A stretch of 22,275 bases of DNA from positions 1-22,275 of the IMG/VR virus record IMGVR_UViG_3300022843_000085. One strand, written 5' to 3'. The notes under the pieces were generated by a model. The model worked only from the letters and a program-made list of their open reading frames with translations. It ran no database searches and had not been told where the DNA came from. Of the stretch, positions 6,491 through 16,602 are shown one piece after another; within the stretch, counting starts at the first letter, position 1, and every line of letters begins with the position of its first letter. The translations under genes and the position numbers were made by a program. Origin of the DNA: a virus.

Positions 6491-8551
6491 CTATGTTGCA
6501 AGTGGATGTCCACTTGGCAGTAAGTCTAAGTCAAATTTACCACCTCTAAATCTACCTGATCTAACAGCATATAAAAAAGCATTTACTCTAGCATATGCCC
6601 ATTGTTCTTCACTTGTTACACTTGGTCTTACACTTCCTGGATTTGTTCTGTAAGCACCTATACCTCTTTTAAATACAGCAGTTAGCATTCTTAAAGTAAC
6701 TCTTTTACCAGCTTTATCTCCATGCTTTTCATTATGCTTATCAACTTTGTTTTGTAATCCTTTTTTAACTGCGGCTGTAACTTGTTTTTCTTCTATAATT
6801 CCTTCTTCTAAAAACTTTCCTCTTTCTCTATCTAGTTGTGCTGATTTTTTCTTTGCCCAACTTTGACCAGCATCACCACCCCATAATGACCATGCTATTC
6901 TACCATTGGATGGATAACCTTTTTCACCAGGTCTAAAACCATCAGCTCTTTTATCTACCTCATGTCTAGCAAAGAAGCTGTTCATTCTTCTAACTGTTCT
7001 TGGTGATAGTTTTTCTTTAGCAACTATTTGACTTGCTCTTGTAGCACCTATTCTTGTACCACCTCTATTAAATTCTTTTCTCCACTCTATACCTCTTTTA
7101 GCTTCTGTAACCATACCATCAGTTGGTACTGTATCAATATCGCTTTCTGCTTTAATGACTTCATCTAATTCTTCATCAGCACTTTGCATATCATTATCTA
7201 ATTGTACTTCTTCTTGTTCTTCTTGTTGTGTTCTTTCTTCTTGTTCTTCTTCTGTCATTGGATCAGTATCAGGTTCATCTTTTGGTTCTTCTTCATCACC
7301 TGCTATGTTTAAAGGCATTAAGTTTGCTGGTACAAGTAAACTATCAGCACCATCTAATGGTTCATAACCCATCTGTTCTCTAGCTTCGTTTCTTGTAAGA
7401 ATACCATTTTGTACTCCTTGTGTAACAGATTCAAATATTCTTTTTCTTTGTTCTGCCATAGCTGGAATAGAATCTATATTATATCTTAATTCTAAATCTT
7501 CACCAAATTGAGGTGATAACCACTCATTTAAATCTGATTGTACTCTATCCAATAAAGGAATAATTGTTTCATTGTATAGTGCAAGTTTAGCTTCTGCAAA
7601 ATTAGAGTAAGTTTGTGAGTCTGGTATTCCAATTATTTGACTTGGTACACCATAAACTAATGCAATGTCTTTTGCTGACATATGTTTTAAACTAGCAAAG
7701 TCCATATCTTTTGGAGATAATCCCATTTCTTTCCAATCAAAATCTCCCTCTAGTAACATTGGTTTCCCTGCATTACCTGTACCTGAAAATCTTTGATTGA
7801 TGTCATTTACTAATTGACTTCTTTGTACATCACTTAATTGCACTTGTGCGCCTGTTTCGTCTTTAGGTTTAAATACAACTGCACCACTTGGTCTTGCACC
7901 ATTTTGTAATAAATTTACATTATGTTTATTTGCAAGGTTATGTTGGTCTATATCAATACTTGCAGTTGAGATTGGTGACATTCCATAGAAATCATCTAAT
8001 GGATTAAATAATTTTATATGTTTAATTTTTGAGTTACCTGTTGATTGATCTACCTCATAACTATTTACAGTTTGACCACCTATAATATAATCATAAGCAG
8101 TAGGCATTGATCTTGAACCTGCTTGTATTCTTATTCTATCTGGTCTTAAATTATATAATTCTGTAGGAGGTGTTCTATCACCACCAACTGAAAGAATATA
8201 ACTATTTCCTGAAATTTGTAAGTAAGCATATAGTGCCTGGAAAAATTCTACACTAGAACACATTGGACTTGGATTATAAAGTAAATCTAATAATGGGTGA
8301 CTATCTAATTCTTGATCACCTCTAAATAAATTTATTTGTACTCTACTTGCACTATTTGCAATTTCATTGATACATCTATATACTATTGCGTTTTGTTGAT
8401 AGCCCTCTTCAGCTAATTGATCGTATCTTGCTTTGTAAGTTACATCTGTTCCTAAACTATTATAATAAACAACAGGAGCTTCTTTTTTTCCTGATTGTTT
8501 TTTATCTGTAGTGTTAAAAATATTTTTTATATTATCTAATATTGTTGCCAT
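6491..8551 (-). CDS. Portal protein, HK97 family, with two extra C-terminal domains
   Basis: Residues about 30-410 are an HK97-type portal: YRCINEIANSASRVQINLF, LLDLLYNPSPMCSSVEFFQ, SGNSYILSVGG, DFYGMSPISTASIDID, DIALVYGVPSQIIGIP, LTRNEAREQMGYEPLDGAD. The dodecameric portal is the channel for DNA packaging and the seat of the connector. An acidic linker (about 418-475, E/D/Q-rich) leads to domain A (480-568; RGIEWRKEFNRGGTRIG, ARHEVDKRADGFRPGEKGYP, IAWSLWGGDAGQSWA) and domain B (590-686; TLRMLTAVFKRGIGAYRTNP, ARVNAFLYAVRSGRFRGGK). Both are basic and I recall similar units in phage structural proteins. At 686 residues it is much longer than the usual 400-500. The start abuts the terminase stop. 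Confidence 0.93.
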   Translation of the reverse strand: MATILDNIKNIFNTTDKKQSGKKEAPVVYYNSLGTDVTYKARYDQLAEEGYQQNAIVYRCINEIANSASRVQINLFRGDQELDSHPLLDLLYNPSPMCSSVEFFQALYAYLQISGNSYILSVGGDRTPPTELYNLRPDRIRIQAGSRSMPTAYDYIIGGQTVNSYEVDQSTGNSKIKHIKLFNPLDDFYGMSPISTASIDIDQHNLANKHNVNLLQNGARPSGAVVFKPKDETGAQVQLSDVQRSQLVNDINQRFSGTGNAGKPMLLEGDFDWKEMGLSPKDMDFASLKHMSAKDIALVYGVPSQIIGIPDSQTYSNFAEAKLALYNETIIPLLDRVQSDLNEWLSPQFGEDLELRYNIDSIPAMAEQRKRIFESVTQGVQNGILTRNEAREQMGYEPLDGADSLLVPANLMPLNIAGDEEEPKDEPDTDPMTEEEQEERTQQEEQEEVQLDNDMQSADEELDEVIKAESDIDTVPTDGMVTEAKRGIEWRKEFNRGGTRIGATRASQIVAKEKLSPRTVRRMNSFFARHEVDKRADGFRPGEKGYPSNGRIAWSLWGGDAGQSWAKKKSAQLDRERGKFLEEGIIEEKQVTAAVKKGLQNKVDKHNEKHGDKAGKRVTLRMLTAVFKRGIGAYRTNPGSVRPSVTSEEQWAYARVNAFLYAVRSGRFRGGKFDLDLLPSGHPLAT

Positions 8552-9847
8552 CTATGATACTCTCCATAATGCTTTTTTTGTTGTTTGCAAGTTATCATAC
8601 AATGTAGATAAAACATCAACTTGGTCATCATGTACATCATTTAATCCTGTAAAACTCATAATCTCCTGTAAGAATGCGTTAGTAAAATTTTTATTCTTTG
8701 GAATTAATACTCTACCATCATTCCAGGCAGATGCAACAGGTTGTGCTCTTACAAACTTATCATTTCTAGCAGGTCGTGAAATAATATTCAAGTTATGTTC
8801 TTTAATCATAAAATCAACAACACCTTTTTCTGTACCTCCAATATAAGCATATATAGGTGATTCATAAGTTTCTTGGTACTGTTTACATATACTAGCAAAG
8901 TGTGTAGCTTCTACCTGTCCTCTCCAAACATCTAATATATAAATTTTACCATCATAATATTTAGCAACACCAGCAACAGAAAAATCTGAATATGTTTTTG
9001 TAGAGTATGCAAAATCAACTGCAATAATTGTTTTACCTCCATCTGGTACTTTTTCATAGAATACTGGGTCTTTGAATACTTTACCCCCTTTAATAAAGGG
9101 TTTTTGCTGATACATAGCTGACCACCAAAATTCACCAACTGCTCTTTTTCTTTCTTCTAATATCTTTTTGGTATACCTGGACTCCCATAATGCTTCACCT
9201 ATTTCTCTACCTAAAGGGTCCTGTGGTTCTGCTATAGCTGGAAGACTTACTACATCCCATTTATCACCATCTAATTCTGCTTGTTTTAATAACCTGCCTG
9301 CTAAATCATCTACATGCCATCTAGTCATAATAATAATAATAGAAGATTCAGGAGCTAATCTAGTAGTTGCAACTGATTGAAACCAATCCAATGTTTTATC
9401 ACGATATACTGTACTCATAGCTTGTTCGTTATTTTTAACAGGGTCATCAATAATAAAAACATTTGCACCTCTACCTGTAATACCACCACCTACACCAACA
9501 CAATACATTCCACCACCCTGTTCTGTTTCCCAGTTACCTTGAACATTTATGTCTTGATTTCTTTTGACCCCATACATTTTAGGCACATATTCATCAAATA
9601 CTTCTTTTGCTTTCCTACCCCATGATGTAGCGAATGATGTTTCGTATGATGCTAATATAAGTTTGTTTCTTGGGTGTGTTGCTAAATACCATGCAGGAAA
9701 ATACTTTGATGTAAATTCTGACTTACCATGTTGAGGTGGCATATTAATTAATAGTCTTTTAATTTTACCACTCGCAACCTGTAACAATTTTGTGTTTAAA
9801 TACTGCAAATGTTTTGGAAACTGCCAAGTAAAATTACTTGTCATCAT
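8552..9847 (-). CDS. terL: Terminase large subunit (TerL)
   Basis: The DNA-packaging motor has an N-terminal ATPase and a C-terminal RNase H-like nuclease. Visible motifs, numbered from this start: Walker A-like MPPQHGKS (36-43), Walker B VFIIDD (130-135), coupling motif MTRWH (174-178), nuclease acidic residue in IIAVDFAYS (D278), and a late acidic cluster HDDQVDVLS. I chose ATG 9847 (431 residues) because GGAGG lies 8 nt before it, 20 nt after the small-subunit stop. An upstream ATG at 9952 would add 35 residues but overlaps the small subunit by 86 nt and has a poor ribosome site. It abuts the portal gene. Confidence 0.93.
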   Translation of the reverse strand: MMTSNFTWQFPKHLQYLNTKLLQVASGKIKRLLINMPPQHGKSEFTSKYFPAWYLATHPRNKLILASYETSFATSWGRKAKEVFDEYVPKMYGVKRNQDINVQGNWETEQGGGMYCVGVGGGITGRGANVFIIDDPVKNNEQAMSTVYRDKTLDWFQSVATTRLAPESSIIIIMTRWHVDDLAGRLLKQAELDGDKWDVVSLPAIAEPQDPLGREIGEALWESRYTKKILEERKRAVGEFWWSAMYQQKPFIKGGKVFKDPVFYEKVPDGGKTIIAVDFAYSTKTYSDFSVAGVAKYYDGKIYILDVWRGQVEATHFASICKQYQETYESPIYAYIGGTEKGVVDFMIKEHNLNIISRPARNDKFVRAQPVASAWNDGRVLIPKNKNFTNAFLQEIMSFTGLNDVHDDQVDVLSTLYDNLQTTKKALWRVS

Positions 9848-9866
9848 AGCAAAACCTCCAGGTTGA

Positions 9867-10421
9867 CTAGTCGCTATCTTTAACTTTTGATAGTAATCTA
9901 GTTGCAAGGTCGGCTGATTCTTGGTCTTGTCCGATTCTTTTAATAAAGTCATCTTCTATATTTATTTGTTGATTTGTGTTGTCCCTTGTTATTCCTCCTT
10001 TAGCAACTCTTTCTACTTCTGTCAGCATTTTAAAAGGATGTGCTATCTTTGAAACTATAGCAACTAACTCTACATCTGATAAGTTTGCAAAATCTAATTC
10101 TTTTTTTTCTTTTAATCTTTTTAATAATTCTTGTGCTGGAGTTATTAGAGAATATGTCATTTGTAAGGCATGGCTTCCCTGTCGTTTACCCATTTCCTCC
10201 ATTTCAGTTTTCATAGAGTTATATCTTATCTGTGCTTGTTGTTGGTCAAACTTGCTAACTCTTGATACCCAACCATATCTTGATGAAATCTTTTCTATTT
10301 CTCTAGTTGTCAATTGGACTTCTTCAGCTACTTTCTTTAATGTTCGTTTATATCCCATGTTTTGATACACGAGATAAAACTCATAGTGTTTATTGGATTC
10401 TTCTGTTTCTTTTTCTATCAT
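9867..10421 (-). CDS. terS: Terminase small subunit-like DNA-binding protein
   Basis: The 184-residue protein precedes TerL. Residues about 25-60 form a helix-turn-helix (TLKKVAEEVQLTTREIEKIS then RYGWVSRVSKFD), a layout shared with many small terminase subunits (HTH followed by a GW-x-x-R segment). A long helical middle could form the ring. The C-terminus is acidic and ends KVKDSD. Small subunits recognise the packaging site and load the motor. No clear ribosome site is seen before the ATG. Two tandem GTTCGGT repeats lie just upstream at 10443-10464 and may be related to DNA recognition. Confidence 0.75.
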   Translation of the reverse strand: MIEKETEESNKHYEFYLVYQNMGYKRTLKKVAEEVQLTTREIEKISSRYGWVSRVSKFDQQQAQIRYNSMKTEMEEMGKRQGSHALQMTYSLITPAQELLKRLKEKKELDFANLSDVELVAIVSKIAHPFKMLTEVERVAKGGITRDNTNQQINIEDDFIKRIGQDQESADLATRLLSKVKDSD

Positions 10422-10844: not shown

Positions 10845-11006
10845 ATGACAATAATTATTTTACTAGCTTTAGCATTACCGACTTGGTTTATCATGTTGGG
10901 TCTAGCAGAGTGTGATGTTTTAAGAAAAGGTAAACTGACTAAATATACTGGAATTAATTTAATGAGAGGCGTTGAGGAGTACAGAGTGGAGGACTACTAT
11001 GGGTAA
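10845..11006 (+). CDS. 53-residue single-pass membrane protein
   Basis: ATG at 10845 follows AGGAG by 5 nt and is the first gene after the promoter. The product begins MTIIILLALALPTWFIMLGL, one hydrophobic helix, followed by a polar tail CDVLRKGKLTKYTG...YRVEDYYG. The stop overlaps the start of the SprT-like gene by 8 nt (ATGGGTAA), so the two are translationally coupled. No family recognised. A small membrane peptide at the head of an operon could act on the host envelope, but this is only inference. Confidence 0.65.
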   Translation: MTIIILLALALPTWFIMLGLAECDVLRKGKLTKYTGINLMRGVEEYRVEDYYG

Positions 11007-11505
11007 ATTTAAAGTTAGAGTTTCTCTACCTAGAGGCGAATTTAATCAAGATAAGTGCAGTATCTTATTACATGCTACTCAATTTTATGCAAAAAAGATA
11101 TTGGGTACTAGATTAGCAAATCTTATCAATGTGAAAATTGATGTTAGAAAAACTATTTTAGATAATAATACTCTTGGAGTTTGTCAAATGAAAGTTACAG
11201 GTTCTAAAAGACAAAGACAATTTAAGATTGTATTGAATGCAAAAGGAGATTTACATTCGCAACTGCAAACTTTAGCACATGAAATGGTTCATGTAAGACA
11301 AAAAGCAAAAAACCAATTGCAATACAGATGGAACAAAAGTGATTCAAGCATCAAAGTAAGATGGATGGATAATGCTCCAGTAAGACCAGAGGATATTCCA
11401 TACAACCAAAGGCCTTGGGAAATTGAGGCAAGAAGTTTAGAAAGAGGATTTTACAAGGATTATCTGAACTTTGTTTATAAAATTAAAAAGAAAGGAGATG
11501 AGTAA
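10999..11505 (+). CDS. SprT-like zinc metalloprotease domain protein
   Basis: The 168-residue protein carries LAHEMVHVRQ (HExxH at 94-98), the zincin active site with two His ligands and catalytic Glu, and downstream PWEIEARSLERG, where a Glu around 141-143 is the likely third ligand. The region before the motif (VKIDVRKTI, FKIVLNA, then the HExxH helix) fits the SprT-like minimal fold found in phages. I chose ATG 10999 because GGAGG lies 6 nt upstream; an earlier frame-start at 10972 lacks this. It ends in a TAATG overlap with a small basic gene. Its substrate is unknown; the SprT/Spartan family cleaves DNA-bound or host proteins. Confidence 0.8.
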   Translation: MGKFKVRVSLPRGEFNQDKCSILLHATQFYAKKILGTRLANLINVKIDVRKTILDNNTLGVCQMKVTGSKRQRQFKIVLNAKGDLHSQLQTLAHEMVHVRQKAKNQLQYRWNKSDSSIKVRWMDNAPVRPEDIPYNQRPWEIEARSLERGFYKDYLNFVYKIKKKGDE

Positions 11506-11896: not shown

Positions 11897-11931
11897 GTTT
11901 TAATCTCCCTAAAGAAATGGTAGAGGTCTAT

Positions 11932-12231
11932 ATGGAAAATTATAGACCTTTGCCTGATTGTTTGACAATTAAATCTTCTAATATTGAGGGTTTAGGATTG
12001 TTTGCAACTGTTGATATTGAAATGAATACTGTCTTTGGTGTATCGCATATCTTATATCAAGATAAACCTGTAAGAACACCATTGGGAGGATTTATCAATC
12101 ATTCTGAAGATTCTAACTGCAAAAAACAATTAATCGGTAATAAATATTATCTATTGAGTAAAAACTCTATAAAAGCTGGTGATGAATTGACTTTGACCTA
12201 CACACTTTACAATGTTACTTCTTGTCTGTAG
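11932..12231 (+). CDS. SET-domain protein (putative protein-lysine methyltransferase)
   Basis: The 99-residue protein contains the two halves of a SET domain: an N-terminal SNIEGLGLFATVDIEMNTVF (S-x-I-x-G-x-GLFA, the SAM-binding GxG equivalent) and a C-terminal FINHSEDSNC (56-58 NHS) followed by SIKAGDELTLTY with the catalytic Tyr. This is the pseudoknot region that binds S-adenosylmethionine and lysine. It is shorter than cellular SET proteins because the insert between the halves is minimal, as in other single-domain microbial ones. ATG 11932 is preferred over 11917, since AGAGG lies 5 nt before it. It is the last gene of its operon and overlaps the convergent IbrB-like gene by 17 nt. Confidence 0.82.
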   Translation: MENYRPLPDCLTIKSSNIEGLGLFATVDIEMNTVFGVSHILYQDKPVRTPLGGFINHSEDSNCKKQLIGNKYYLLSKNSIKAGDELTLTYTLYNVTSCL

Positions 12232-12733
12232 GCACCCATGATTTTCCAAAACCATCTACTTGTTTTGTACCCCTGATAGTCATTCCTGAATTATCTAGCA
12301 ATCTTTCCAATTCTTCTTCTTCCATAGATAGTCTTTCCATAATTTCTTTATCAGGAAGATTATCTTCTTTCATTTTTCTAACTATCTCTGACATTTTAAG
12401 AACAGCATGAGTACCTCTAGCTCTATTGTGTCTTATTGTGGACATCATTCGGTGGTCCTTATCAAAATCAACTATTACAACAGGGACTTTTCCATCTGTC
12501 ATTTGTGATACTTCAGGGTCTTTAGATAGTGTCCATCTATGGAATCCATCTACAATTGTATTGTCTGATAGTATTACTATTGGTTGAGTCCATCCATCCT
12601 CTATAATAGAAGTTTTAAGCAACTGCAATTCAGGTGGTGCTACAAAATTTGGATTATAATCGTTTGCATTTAGAGTGTTTCTATCAACCCATTGGACTTT
12701 TCCTACTGGTTGATTATCAATACCTTGTTTCAT
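12215..12733 (-). CDS. ibrB-like: IbrB-like ParB/sulfiredoxin-fold protein
   Basis: The 172-residue protein has a ParB N-terminal-type domain: LNANDYNPNFVAPPELQLL, EDGWTQPIVIL, and NTIVDGFHRWTLS (the GHRR-type motif as GFHRW, 63-67), then IRHNRARGTH (100-109), comparable to the second ParB nucleotide-binding motif, and a helical C-terminus with a possible HTH (PDKEIMERLSMEEEELERLL). In Escherichia coli an IbrA/IbrB pair (PAPS-reductase-like plus ParB-like) lies on a genetic island and activates prophage eib genes. Here the same order occurs: the start overlaps the IbrA-like gene by 17 nt with GAGG upstream. Biochemical role unknown. Confidence 0.8.
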   Translation of the reverse strand: MKQGIDNQPVGKVQWVDRNTLNANDYNPNFVAPPELQLLKTSIIEDGWTQPIVILSDNTIVDGFHRWTLSKDPEVSQMTDGKVPVVIVDFDKDHRMMSTIRHNRARGTHAVLKMSEIVRKMKEDNLPDKEIMERLSMEEEELERLLDNSGMTIRGTKQVDGFGKSWVPTDKK

Positions 12734-13880
12734 CTTTTAACCTCATTTGATCTATTAGTTTTTTCTTTTCAGGGTCAGCATGACTAGACATGGTTCTTAA
12801 TCTTCTGCCTTTCATATCACCTCTTAAAGCTATCATACAAAGACCTTTCCAGGATAATCCTGTAATATCATCAGGAGTTGTATCAGGCACTGGTCTTCTT
12901 GCAAGATTTATATGATTTCCAACTGCTGATCTAACATTGGAAAGAATAAATTTTTGTTGTTCAATATCGTATAAAGCGACATTATCATAGAACCAATCTT
13001 TCCATGTTTTATCTTTTGGAAGTTTTATTCCACCAAATCCATACAATTGTGTTCTTGAATATTTTTCTGATGTTGATGCACCAGAAACTCTACCTGTCAT
13101 TTTTGCCCAAAGTTCTGGCCAACCGACTTTATACTGCCAAAGTCCTCTCATTGGTTCTTCCCCAAAAGGAACACAGACTCTTTGTTCATTCTTACCTACA
13201 CCCATTTTATCAAGAACATCATAAACTCTATTATAATCCCAATTATAAATTTTTGGTGCTAACCAAACATCTGAAGAAGTCCAATCATATATTGGTGATA
13301 CTCCATATGAATATCCACTTCGTGCTCCTGTTATCCAGTTATCTTTTACCCGATGTGATACTGCTCTAAACCTAGTTAAACTTTCTTGTGCTCTTAAACC
13401 TCTAACATCAGCTATTCTTCCATGAGTATGATCATAAACTAAATGTGATACTTCAGGAATTGTATGTCCAGGTTTAAAACCTTTTATGTCAGTAATTGCA
13501 AAATCAGGAATATCTCTTACCCACTTGTCTTTACATTTAGGGTCAAAAGGATACCAAAATGGATCTCTACGACTTCCTCCATTTCTATGTTTAACTGGAA
13601 TACATAACCATTTTAATCTTATGTCAGGGTCGTTTTTAACCCTCATCATATACTCTACAGTTTCAGGCATTATAACTTCCTCATCCCAGAAATAAACATC
13701 TAAAGGAAGTTTGTTTTTTTCTCTAGCAATCTTTAATGCTAAATTTAAACAGACTGTGGAGTCTTTGCCTCCTGAAAAAGATACAACTACTTTATCAAAG
13801 CTATCAAATAAATATCTAAATCTATCTAAAGCTGATTGATAAACATTAGTTTCAATTTCTCTTTTTTTTAATACTACCAT
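12717..13880 (-). CDS. ibrA-like: IbrA-like PP-loop ATPase (PAPS reductase superfamily, DUF3440 type)
   Basis: The 387-residue protein starts MVVLKKREIETNVYQSALDR and has the PP-loop VVVSFSGGKDSTVCLN (SGGKDS at 36-41), which binds and activates ATP. Other segments: LDVYFWDEEVIMPETVEYM, GLRAQESLTRF, PIYDWTSSDVW (as in PAPS reductases), then a long C-terminal region with RVCVPFGEEPMRGLWQYK and PELWAKMTGRVSGA, which I associate with DUF3440/IbrA. I see no ECGxH catalytic cysteine, so it is probably not a PAPS reductase but an adenylating or ATP-pyrophosphatase enzyme. ATG 13880 is chosen; a TTG at 13901 is possible. It overlaps the symporter by 29 nt and the ParB-like gene by 17 nt. Confidence 0.85.
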   Translation of the reverse strand: MVVLKKREIETNVYQSALDRFRYLFDSFDKVVVSFSGGKDSTVCLNLALKIAREKNKLPLDVYFWDEEVIMPETVEYMMRVKNDPDIRLKWLCIPVKHRNGGSRRDPFWYPFDPKCKDKWVRDIPDFAITDIKGFKPGHTIPEVSHLVYDHTHGRIADVRGLRAQESLTRFRAVSHRVKDNWITGARSGYSYGVSPIYDWTSSDVWLAPKIYNWDYNRVYDVLDKMGVGKNEQRVCVPFGEEPMRGLWQYKVGWPELWAKMTGRVSGASTSEKYSRTQLYGFGGIKLPKDKTWKDWFYDNVALYDIEQQKFILSNVRSAVGNHINLARRPVPDTTPDDITGLSWKGLCMIALRGDMKGRRLRTMSSHADPEKKKLIDQMRLKDETRY

Positions 13881-15261
13881 AATTTGTAAAGTAATAGACA
13901 ATTATTCCACTTGCTGACACAGTAAATATAGATGACCAAACTGCTAAATCAGTAAGACCATTAAATTTTGCATAAGCAAACATTGGAACACCAATAACTA
14001 AAGATGTCGTAATACCATAGAACATTCCTGGTTCTGATACTTTTTTATTAATTATTGTATAAATTGTCGGTATTAATGTTGATGCTCTTAATGTTCCATA
14101 GAAAATAAATAAATATAATATTTTCATATCAGGAATATTAGCAAGAGCAATTCCACCTATTGAAAGTAGAACCATTCCAGTTCTTGCATTAGTTAGTTTA
14201 TTTTTTGAATTAGGAATAATATCTGTACTTGCAATTGAAGATATAGAACACAATCCTGAATCTAATGTAGACACAAGACCAGATAATAACATCCAAACAA
14301 AAGGTATTAGAATAAATGTCGGCAATAATTCACTAACAGTTATTACATTGATTAGTTGTGCATTACCTCCTGCATCTATACCTAGACCGGCACCCATAAA
14401 TCCTATTACTGATGTAAATATTGGAACAACACCAAAGACTAATGCTGAAAGTAAAAATGATTTCTTGACTTCGTTTTGTTTTGTTGTAAATGCTCTTTGC
14501 CAAAAGGATTGATCACCAAATGGTCCTGCAAGTAATCCAATTGATACTACAATACCAAATGACCATGCAACTGATGAATCAAAGACATTAGAATACTCTC
14601 CAGAGATACCACCAATGCCTTTGACCATTACATCATAACCACCTCCTTGAATATAAACTAGAGGTACTACTACTAACACCACTATAAGTATTATTATCAT
14701 CTGCCAAACATCTGTCATAATTGAAGCCCTTATCCCTGATACAAATGAATAAGATAAAGCTATTGCTGTAAGTATAACTGTTACGACTGTATAATCTATT
14801 CCTGTTAAGTAAGTAACGACTGCACCACCAGCAAGTAGCTGAACAGCAAACTGACAAATAGAAAGAGCAGATAGACTAATGATATATAAAATCTGCACTC
14901 GTCTTGAATATCTAACATTCATATATTGAGCAAGTGTAAATCCATTTTTAAATTTGTTTCTTAAATATTGTGCAAAGTATGCAAAGATACAAAGACATAT
15001 TATGTTTGGTACTGTAAACCAAAAGACACCAGGCAATCCCTGTTGATATGCTTTTTGTGATGCTATGAATAGAGCTGGAGCCCATATCCAAGTAGCGGCA
15101 GTTGAAAATCCTGATTTCATAAAACCAACTTTTCTATCTGATACTAAAAAATTTGTATTTGTTTTAGATTCTTTTAAGTAGAAGTAAGATATTCCGAACA
15201 TGAATAATCCATAACTAATTAAAAGAATATAACCTGTTGAGGTACTTAATAGTGTTTCCAT
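13852..15261 (-). CDS. Sodium:solute symporter, SSS family
   Basis: The 469-residue integral membrane protein has about 12-13 hydrophobic segments from TSTGYILLISYGLFMFG to GIIVYYFTN. SSS hallmarks include STAATWIWAPALFIASQ (TM1-2, 53-69), SGIRASIMTDVWQ (175-187), GPFGDQSFWQRAFTTK (246-261) and SGLVSTLDSGLCSISS followed by ASTDI (327-348). S331-T332 align with the Ser-Thr of the Na2 sodium site known in PutP. GDQ-x-WQRA resembles urea/proton (DUR3) and related permeases, but the substrate cannot be read. Length is normal and the frame intact. It sits 4 nt after a ParB-like gene, with AAGGA upstream, and overlaps the IbrA-like gene, so it is in the phage operon. Confidence 0.9.
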   Translation of the reverse strand: METLLSTSTGYILLISYGLFMFGISYFYLKESKTNTNFLVSDRKVGFMKSGFSTAATWIWAPALFIASQKAYQQGLPGVFWFTVPNIICLCIFAYFAQYLRNKFKNGFTLAQYMNVRYSRRVQILYIISLSALSICQFAVQLLAGGAVVTYLTGIDYTVVTVILTAIALSYSFVSGIRASIMTDVWQMIIILIVVLVVVPLVYIQGGGYDVMVKGIGGISGEYSNVFDSSVAWSFGIVVSIGLLAGPFGDQSFWQRAFTTKQNEVKKSFLLSALVFGVVPIFTSVIGFMGAGLGIDAGGNAQLINVITVSELLPTFILIPFVWMLLSGLVSTLDSGLCSISSIASTDIIPNSKNKLTNARTGMVLLSIGGIALANIPDMKILYLFIFYGTLRASTLIPTIYTIINKKVSEPGMFYGITTSLVIGVPMFAYAKFNGLTDLAVWSSIFTVSASGIIVYYFTNYGSIKKKRN

Positions 15262-15265
15262 TTTT

Positions 15266-15904
15266 TTATTTCCTTACCAAAAACATCACAGACTCTGCAA
15301 ATGTTTTTAAATTGTTTGTTTCTTTTATGTTATTTAATACTTTGTATAATTCTTTCCTGTCTTCTTCTGTAAGTAGGATAGAAAATTCTACAAATCTTTG
15401 GTTCTCATCTGATGGATTAGAAAATGTGTTTGAAGTTCTAACAGTTTCATCACCACCTTCTTCTTGATTATTTTTTATATTTCTATCGGTTTCCATTTCT
15501 TGAAATCTTAATTTAATATAATCAAATTCACCCTCATCAAATCCAAGCAGTTGTTCGTCTATTTGATTTTTATCTATTAATTCTGAAATTTCTTTAACAG
15601 CTAAATCCCAATCCCAAGCAGTTTCTTCATGACTTCTGTTATCCATGAATCTATATGCTTTTACCTTTTCTTCAGAAAGTCCAACTGCTTTAAAAACTGG
15701 TACTTCTCTAAATCCAAGTTTTTCAGCCGCCTTATGTCTTGTGTGTCCAGCAATTATAATATTATTTTCATCAACTACGATTGGTTGTTGCCACCCAAAT
15801 TCTTTTAGACTTAAAGCAACTTTATCAACTGCTTTATCTGAAATTTTTCGTGGATTATTTTCGTATGGTTTTATTTCTGTTATACTTATTGTTTCAATAT
15901 TCAT
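15266..15904 (-). CDS. ParB-like nuclease-domain protein
   Basis: The 212-residue protein has a phage-type ParB N-terminal domain: ITEIKPYENNPRKISDKAVD, EFGWQQPIVVDENNIIIAGH and TRHKAAEKLGFREVPVF (AGHTRHKAA, 52-60), then YRFMDNRSHEETAWDWD. These domains bind CTP or nucleic acids, and are often fused to DNA methylases in phages; no methylase is fused here. The C-terminal half is an acidic linker plus FVEFSILLTEEDRKELYKVL. ATG 15904 is chosen over a TTG at 15916. It is followed after 4 nt by the symporter. A different ParB type from the IbrB-like protein; role unknown, possibly DNA modification, partition or regulation. Confidence 0.82.
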   Translation of the reverse strand: MNIETISITEIKPYENNPRKISDKAVDKVALSLKEFGWQQPIVVDENNIIIAGHTRHKAAEKLGFREVPVFKAVGLSEEKVKAYRFMDNRSHEETAWDWDLAVKEISELIDKNQIDEQLLGFDEGEFDYIKLRFQEMETDRNIKNNQEEGGDETVRTSNTFSNPSDENQRFVEFSILLTEEDRKELYKVLNNIKETNNLKTFAESVMFLVRK

Positions 15905-15948
15905 AAATAGGGACAATTTCCACTCTCGCTTTATTGCCCCAAACCTTT

Positions 15949-16602
15949 CTATCTGTTTTTGTATGGCTTGTAAAATACAAAGTTGTTATCTTTAATTGTT
16001 TTTAAAAAATTTTCCCATTTATCTTTATCTTTATCAAATCCATTTATTAAAAGTTCTCGGTCATATTTATCCATATTACCAATCATTTCCCATGCTCGTT
16101 TTTCCAACATAGCTCTTGGATTTAATTTTTTATTTTGATCTACTTTAGTCTTATAAAATATATTAGTCCTTTTTGTAATTTTATTCAATGTATTTTGTAT
16201 GATATTTATATTAACATAGTTCTTACCCTCCTCTTTCTTACCCTCCTCTTTTTCCTTATTGTATTTATTATATGTATTTATTAGTGAGTAATTTTTGCTC
16301 GGTGTTTGACCCTCCTTTTTCCATTTCTGTGGTTTCTGTATATGTACTGTGTACAAGTTGGAGTTGTGCGTTCTCTTAACCCAAGAAATAAACTTCCATT
16401 TCTTGAATTTCTGTAAAATTTTGGATATAGTTCTGGAAGAAAGGTCTAGGTGTTTAGATATGTAATCAACAGAAAAAAATAATTCTTTATACATTTGGTT
16501 GTATTTTATAAAAAAACATAGAACCTTAATTTGATTACCAGTTAATTTGTAATCAAAAATATATTTTTCAGGTAATACTATAAATTTTTCCTGTTCCACC
16601 AT
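15949..16602 (-). CDS. Winged-helix DNA-binding protein, probable replication initiator
   Basis: The 217-residue protein has an N-terminal winged helix (about 18-88): LTGNQIKVLCFFIKYNQ, SVDYISKHLDLSSRTISKIL (recognition helix), KFISWVKRTHNSNLYTV (wing). This is the layout of phage and plasmid replication proteins of the O or RepA-N type. A lysine-rich linker (YNKEKEEGKKEEGK) separates it from a basic C-terminal region. Position next to VRR-NUC and HNH genes in the early operon fits a replication role, but a transcriptional function cannot be excluded. The ATG has a weak ribosome site and lies 23 nt after the VRR-NUC stop. Confidence 0.65.
   Translation of the reverse strand: MVEQEKFIVLPEKYIFDYKLTGNQIKVLCFFIKYNQMYKELFFSVDYISKHLDLSSRTISKILQKFKKWKFISWVKRTHNSNLYTVHIQKPQKWKKEGQTPSKNYSLINTYNKYNKEKEEGKKEEGKNYVNINIIQNTLNKITKRTNIFYKTKVDQNKKLNPRAMLEKRAWEMIGNMDKYDRELLINGFDKDKDKWENFLKTIKDNNFVFYKPYKNR

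Follow-up and report, generated by a model that had tools for sequence, protein, structure and literature searches.

The finding of a complete gene for a sodium/solute symporter (SSS) among the genes of a bacteriophage raises two questions: whether the gene belongs to the virus at all and, if so, what a phage would do with a membrane transporter. We have addressed them in a stretch of 22,275 nucleotides from a virus record (IMG/VR IMGVR_UViG_3300022843_000085, positions 1 to 22,275), hereafter the window, for which a search of the phage collection gave no close DNA match. Profile searches identify in it phage genes for the large terminase subunit (TerL), an HK97-type portal, a MuF-type head protein, a prohead protease, the capsid and a head-tail connector. 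The transporter gene lies in a minus-strand operon with the order ParB1-SSS-IbrA-IbrB, and the features relevant here are the following:

8552-9952, minus strand: terminase large subunit, TerL (phrog_38, E 2.9e-97)
12215-12733, minus strand: IbrB, a second ParB/Srx-like protein (phrog_2159, E 2.9e-63)
12717-13880, minus strand: IbrA, a PP-loop protein annotated as PAPS-reductase-like, with an SGGKDS motif (PF01507, E 3.1e-14; DUF3440, E 7.6e-14; phrog_2302, E 2e-83)
13852-15261, minus strand: SSS-family (LeuT-fold) transporter, 469 residues, intact (SSF profile, model fold, phrog_20720)
15266-15916, minus strand: ParB1, ParB/Srx-like (PF02195 ParB_N, E 1.1e-9; phrog_620, E 4.3e-47)
15949-16602, minus strand: HTH_36/DnaD-like protein, upstream of the cassette (PF13730, E 2.4e-6)

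The stop codon of ParB1 ends at 15266, leaving a gap of 4 nt to the ATG of the transporter gene, and the end of the latter is overlapped by IbrA by 29 nt from its ATG at 13880, or by 50 nt if the longest IbrA reading frame, beginning at a TTG at 13901, is considered. IbrB and IbrA overlap by 17 nt, being adjacent and overlapping genes here as in many annotated phages. The sequence-only reading, which placed the transporter between two ParB/IbrA-type genes, gave this spacing correctly; the neighbors can now be told apart, the upstream one being of ParB type and the downstream one IbrA, with the ParB-type IbrB beyond (its ParB_N match, E 1.5e-4, is under the Pfam cut-off). The HTH_36/DnaD-like gene keeps its position in near relatives of the window phage and not, by synteny, across the wider SSS family.

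The transporter gene begins with an ATG and runs through 469 codons with no internal stop. Its product matches the Pfam SSF profile (PF00474) over residues 38-417 with E 1.8e-21 and 76.9 bits, against a gathering cut-off of 22.8, and scores 119.5 bits (E 1.8e-34) on TIGR00813, the sss superfamily model, under the curated cut-off of 184, which indicates that it has diverged from the sequences on which that model was built. The NCBIfam equivalog models for PutP and PanF give 49.4 and 57.4 bits, where 515.5 and 328 are needed. In the AlphaFold model (pLDDT 92.7), the fold is closest among solved structures to CHT1 (Z 46.6, rmsd 2.6 over 453 residues), DUR3 (Z 39.1) and SiaT (Z 38.5). The earlier description of a full-length, intact SSS protein is thus borne out by the reading frame, the profile and the fold alike. 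The two segments that had been singled out, WQRA and STLDSG, correspond to W254-Q255-R256-A257 and S331-G336. In a 40-sequence family alignment, S331, T332, D334 and S335 each reach at least 90% conservation, the S331/T332 pair is found in 93% of 140 sequences, and no less than 90% of the family retains a D-Q-x-x-x-Q-R segment. The alignment agrees with the proposal that S331 and T332 would form the hydroxyl pair at the Na2 position of TM8, and fold and Na2 residues together point to a putative Na+-coupled importer.

The same protein matches, over residues 11-459, a PHROG of unknown function (phrog_20720, E 2.9e-112), and it is almost certain that this phrog_20720 member is a transporter; to a group hitherto without assigned function, the present analysis adds the SSS annotation and the operon context. 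With the SSS/SLC5 proteins (TC 2.A.21: CHT1, SiaT, DUR3, vSGLT) the phage protein shares the full-length fold, the SSF profile and the Na2 hydroxyl pair, whereas it differs from the solved structures in its identity of only about 18-21%, in forming a subfamily of its own, marked by the motifs W-I-W-A-P (TM1) and G-P-F-G-D-Q-x-F-W-Q-R (TM6), and in lying in a phage operon. A PADLOC search of the SSS protein against known defence systems gave no match.

Transporters are unusual in phages, which speaks for host DNA or an assembly chimera as the origin of the gene. However, a contig from a second metagenome is 99.8% identical to the window across 9,886 nt, further contigs carry the same gene order at 80-91% DNA identity, and relatives of phrog_20720 are found in at least 186 viral contigs and at least 158 genome contigs; these totals, from collection scans seeded with conserved peptides, are lower bounds whose proportions are not population frequencies, and the same prophage may be counted in both sets. 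The dN/dS ratios against relatives are 0.12-0.15 for the transporter and 0.09-0.16 for its neighbors, showing that the gene is under purifying selection and is selectively maintained in the phage. The probability that the gene is host DNA or a chimera is therefore negligible, the earlier statement that this is not a host flank holds, and a one-off acquisition is ruled out by the number of relatives. The remark that transporters are rare in phages may still be true in general, but the gene at hand is a member of a large phage and prophage family. A close SSS turned up just once in the 50,697 deposited phage records, in an uncultured faecal clone (a second clone matches at E 1e-5), so that the cultured phages have concealed the family. 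In the open-access literature, we found no relevant paper on phage SSS genes or on SSS with IbrA/ParB, and none that describes the whole module.

The constancy of the gene's surroundings bears on its function. For the cassette counts, all reading frames were searched with profiles (gene calls outside annotated records being longest-ORF or six-frame calls made in the analysis) around 155 distinct SSS loci among the matches listed, near-identical SSS copies having been removed and related ones kept. IbrA lies within 5 kb of SSS in 121 of these 155 loci; the nearby cassette genes are co-directional with SSS in all 121, and in 111 of them a cassette gene lies no more than 60 nt away. Of the viral loci, 45 extend for 2.5 kb or more to each side of SSS, and every one of these has a cassette gene. 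IbrB and a ParB-like protein usually accompany the IbrA-linked transporter, often together with a second PP-loop protein, PPL2 (the full set including PPL2 occurs in 70 loci), and terminase commonly follows. Relatives of the window phage have the order ParB1-SSS-IbrA-IbrB, Clostridia prophages have SSS-PPL2-ParB1-IbrA-IbrB-TerS-TerL, and a lineage with a Bacteroidales genome among its members has SSS..PPL2-ParB1-IbrB-IbrA. The transporter gene is part of a phage operon that is conserved and commonly situated just ahead of terminase, and the reshuffling of gene order around a constant content argues for a joint function: SSS is very probably a functional partner of the IbrA/IbrB cassette. Prophages of the cultured Anaerotruncus colihominis DSM 17241 and Acetatifactor muris DSM 23669 carry the cassette. 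Loci L255 and L257:2494-5387 have a tandem SSS pair before ParB1-IbrA-IbrB.

This linkage also weighs against another account of the gene, namely that it is a general nutrient-uptake auxiliary gene (for an amino acid, a choline-like compound or urea) with incidental operon partners. The protein is, after all, an SSS transporter, and its profile neighbors DUR3 and CHT are nutrient transporters, but a free-standing uptake gene should show varied contexts, rather than a tight, co-directional association with one set of enzymes that persists in widely differing phages and through changes of gene order. The prediction of altered uptake in infected cells is, in this regard, too general, since the conserved partners place it in a specific operon.

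The reciprocal search, from IbrA, gives a similar picture for a limited subset of phages. Among 35 close IbrA loci, a group seeded with Clostridia-type IbrA whose proportions describe that subset and not all phages, 20 have SSS, nine a short SSS-like transporter and six neither, some of these six being short contigs. SSS occurs near only one of 45 distant IbrA loci, on a contig already present in the SSS search, and a close SSS in one of the 215 deposited phage records that match IbrA. As 44 of the 45 distant loci are without SSS and nearly all of the 215 records without a close one, IbrA/IbrB function in general does not need the transporter, which is limited to one IbrA subset among the phage IbrA/IbrB pairs. 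Compared with the usual pair, the window adds the transporter and an extra ParB-like protein, and its relatives also a second PP-loop enzyme. In a hydropathy screen of 80 IbrA loci, no other protein with at least five predicted transmembrane segments was found within 5 kb.

The short transporter is exemplified by gp35 of Faecalibacterium phage FP_Taranis, a 333-residue 'transporter membrane protein' encoded directly before ParB, IbrA, IbrB and then TerS and TerL, that is, in the same cassette slot. It is about 130 residues shorter than the window protein. Its family, found in 11 viral contigs, has no Pfam SSF match, and a PDB search with its profile returned nothing significant. Against the SSS profile, however, hhalign gives 94% (E 1.3e-7), and the model (pLDDT 83) has CHT1 as its best structural match (Z 24.1), other LeuT-fold families reaching Z 17-20, so that the fold alone is the weaker evidence. 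Profile and fold comparison together make the short transporter a remote SSS homologue, ruling out a non-homologous replacement; the membrane protein in the cassette slot, where present, is of SSS type. Both this occupation of the same slot and the lack of any other polytopic protein near IbrA add to the case against nutrient uptake with incidental partners, which we consider unlikely, at perhaps one chance in seven.

Phage genes annotated as 'PAPS reductase' are commonly presented as part of sulfur metabolism, and IbrA carries such an annotation. On the CysH model (TIGR00434), it scores 16.9 bits, where 165.1 are required. The catalytic cysteine of CysH sits in the C-terminal half; in 109 IbrA sequences, no cysteine column reaches 93% (C97 is present in 90%) and none past residue 156 exceeds 30%, whereas the S-G-G-K-D of the PP-loop is conserved in at least 93%. 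The low score and the missing C-terminal cysteine make ATP-dependent activation a likelier chemistry for IbrA than sulfate reduction, judging from its sequence, and on these grounds we reject sulfate assimilation through IbrA. IbrA thus lacks the PAPS reductase features tested, and its companions are a putative importer, two ParB-like proteins and, in many loci, another PP-loop enzyme. This last one, PPL2, belongs to the PAPS_reduct family (E 4e-13); none was detected in the window by profile search. In two near relatives (L005 and L006, 82% SSS identity), PPL2 is located after IbrB. In Clostridia prophages (L032:10145-10843 and relatives), ParB1 carries a C-x-x-C zinc-ribbon-like tail in 84-91% of the rows, a tail that the window ParB1 does not have. 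Pseudoalteromonas phage XCL1123 (L213:4980-7241) encodes, between IbrA and IbrB, an ectoine-synthase-type cupin (PF06339, E 1.7e-35), another small-molecule enzyme within an IbrA cassette.

The transporter is found beside other PP-loop enzymes as well. In a second phage group, it adjoins one or two proteins of 365-385 residues with an SGGIDS motif (Asn_synthase-like PP-loop, unrecognised by Pfam), followed by TerL, and relatives of these proteins lie near SSS in Patescibacteria and an alphaproteobacterium. Chromosomal SSS genes in Desulfobacterota, Electrothrix and Armatimonadota adjoin genes for a zinc-ribbon-like protein and for proteins in which GATase_7 and Asn_synthase domains are recognised (E about 1e-62 to 1e-73 among those scanned). 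The predicted N-termini of the neighboring Asn_synthase proteins, MGSLFG, MGAIFG and MGCLFG at the predicted gene starts, are without the catalytic Cys2. At L060:1665-4418, and likewise at L061, L062, L098 and L107, a chromosomal SSS stands with a zinc-ribbon-like protein of about 340 residues and a Cys2-less Asn_synthase, which may represent a cellular gene set so far undescribed. On the SSS tree, the context labels need 15 changes, against 30 when shuffled, and none of 200 shuffles is as low, in a tree whose deep branches are weak and whose root is arbitrary, and with near-copies inflating the label test. About a dozen SSS loci, including nine chromosomal ones with ample sequence to either side, have no PP-loop partner nearby, and the chromosomal ones count against the reading favored below. 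What recurs beside SSS is a PP-loop ATP pyrophosphatase.

The Cys2-less Asn_synthase proteins beside cellular SSS genes resemble non-glutaminase members of their family, and in this they lend some weight to the idea that the cassette modifies a protein or peptide by amide or ligase chemistry (cf. lasso-peptide or lactam synthetases), the transporter moving a precursor or product, possibly outward. This we consider improbable: among the genes recognised near the phage cassettes, none was for a precursor peptide or its maturation, and to our knowledge SSS proteins of known direction are importers.

A control function is another possibility, in which the SSS protein would be a membrane sensor or anchor governing the ParB and IbrA proteins, for instance as regulators of prophage genes. 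Some bacteria have sensor kinases with a fused SSS domain, and the existence of the short form may signal a relaxed need for a full transporter. ParB-fold domains, moreover, bind CTP, ATP or GTP and are NTP-binding switches (PMC12704722), and IbrA/IbrB were named for the activation of prophage eib genes, according to the title of Sandt 2002, cited in PMC10434257. Nevertheless, at least 90% of sequences retain the Na2 hydroxyls and the D-Q-x-x-x-Q-R segment, as a working transporter should, and the linkage to several kinds of biosynthetic-type PP-loop enzymes also speaks against a sensor. We rate such a role as unlikely, with roughly one chance in six.

With regard to the substrate, urea or related compounds had been suggested from the GDQ-x-WQRA segment. 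The solved sequence closest to the SSS protein is indeed DUR3 (E 2.7e-32), named a urea-proton symporter, but CHT1 is nearer by fold, DUR3 aligns S-A at the site where the phage family has S-T, and no urea-related genes occur among the context genes of SSS. The suggestion is left unsupported, and we have dropped the motif as a mark of urea specificity, as it is a subfamily feature.

The reading that we favor, with about even chances of being right, is that of a Na+-coupled importer that supplies a PP-loop/ParB pathway of the phage, plausibly one for the hypermodification of DNA or RNA. In this model, SSS would import a small molecule during infection or lysogeny (sensing or export being less likely), the PP-loop enzymes would activate it with ATP, releasing PPi, and join it to an acceptor, and the ParB/Srx-fold proteins would act as NTP-dependent partners. 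Because the transporter is repeatedly linked to three kinds of PP-loop ATP pyrophosphatases, the imported compound may well be the substrate of the cassette's PP-loop enzymes, a step to which we likewise give a one-in-two chance. The likeliest acceptor, at a guess, would be phage DNA or tRNA, with a protective or translation-related hypermodification as the outcome.

The guess of a nucleic-acid acceptor draws on the weak similarity of IbrA to DndC/SspD/BrxP, on the ParB fold and on the position near the packaging genes. In the phosphorothioation systems Dnd, Ssp and BrxP, a PP-loop enzyme (DndC, SspD or BrxP) stands beside the ParB-fold DndB, as it does in our cassette, and DpdB and DndB are stated to be ParB-like (PMC12839542). 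In contrast, the profile similarity of IbrA is weak (E 1e-7 to 1e-4 for the DndC, BrxP and SspD models; E 1e-5 for the PADLOC DndC; 21.3 bits on the DndC model TIGR03183, where 290.4 are needed), and neither DndD/DndE nor a cysteine desulfurase was recognised in the window. A partial precedent is offered by phages that encode homologues of the preQ0 transporter YhhQ, without correlation to phage group (PMC6884629), where uptake of preQ0 for 7-deazaguanine DNA means that a transporter could supply a DNA-modification precursor; the YhhQ family is unrelated to the phage SSS transporter. By these analogies, nucleic-acid modification is a tentative candidate for the end product. The complete scheme, a widespread phage system in which a dedicated Na+ symporter would import a precursor for attachment to phage DNA or host tRNA by PP-loop ATPases and ParB-fold NTPases, is rather doubtful, with somewhat over one chance in four.

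The occurrence of the same SSS in hundreds of phages and prophages beside the same ATP-using enzymes suggests the import of a building block for phage chemistry, and not a stray host gene. Genes so far labeled as unknown or auxiliary metabolic thereby yield a concrete, testable pathway with a possible entry point for its substrate, and the module can be approached experimentally, as it occurs in prophages of cultured bacteria and, in its short-transporter form, in FP_Taranis.

Some further genes of the window deserve mention. A SET-domain protein of 104 residues (11917-12231, plus strand; Pfam SET, E 1.4e-8) is convergent to IbrB, and its homologues occupy the same place in related contigs. 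The portal protein, of 686 residues (6491-8551, minus strand), has a C-terminal extension, and its residues 457-577 match phrog_2859 (E 1.1e-29), a distinct PHROG without assigned function. Finally, a protein with an HEMVH motif, encoded at 10972-11505 on the plus strand, weakly matches the putative metallopeptidase family DUF6782 (E 0.0016).
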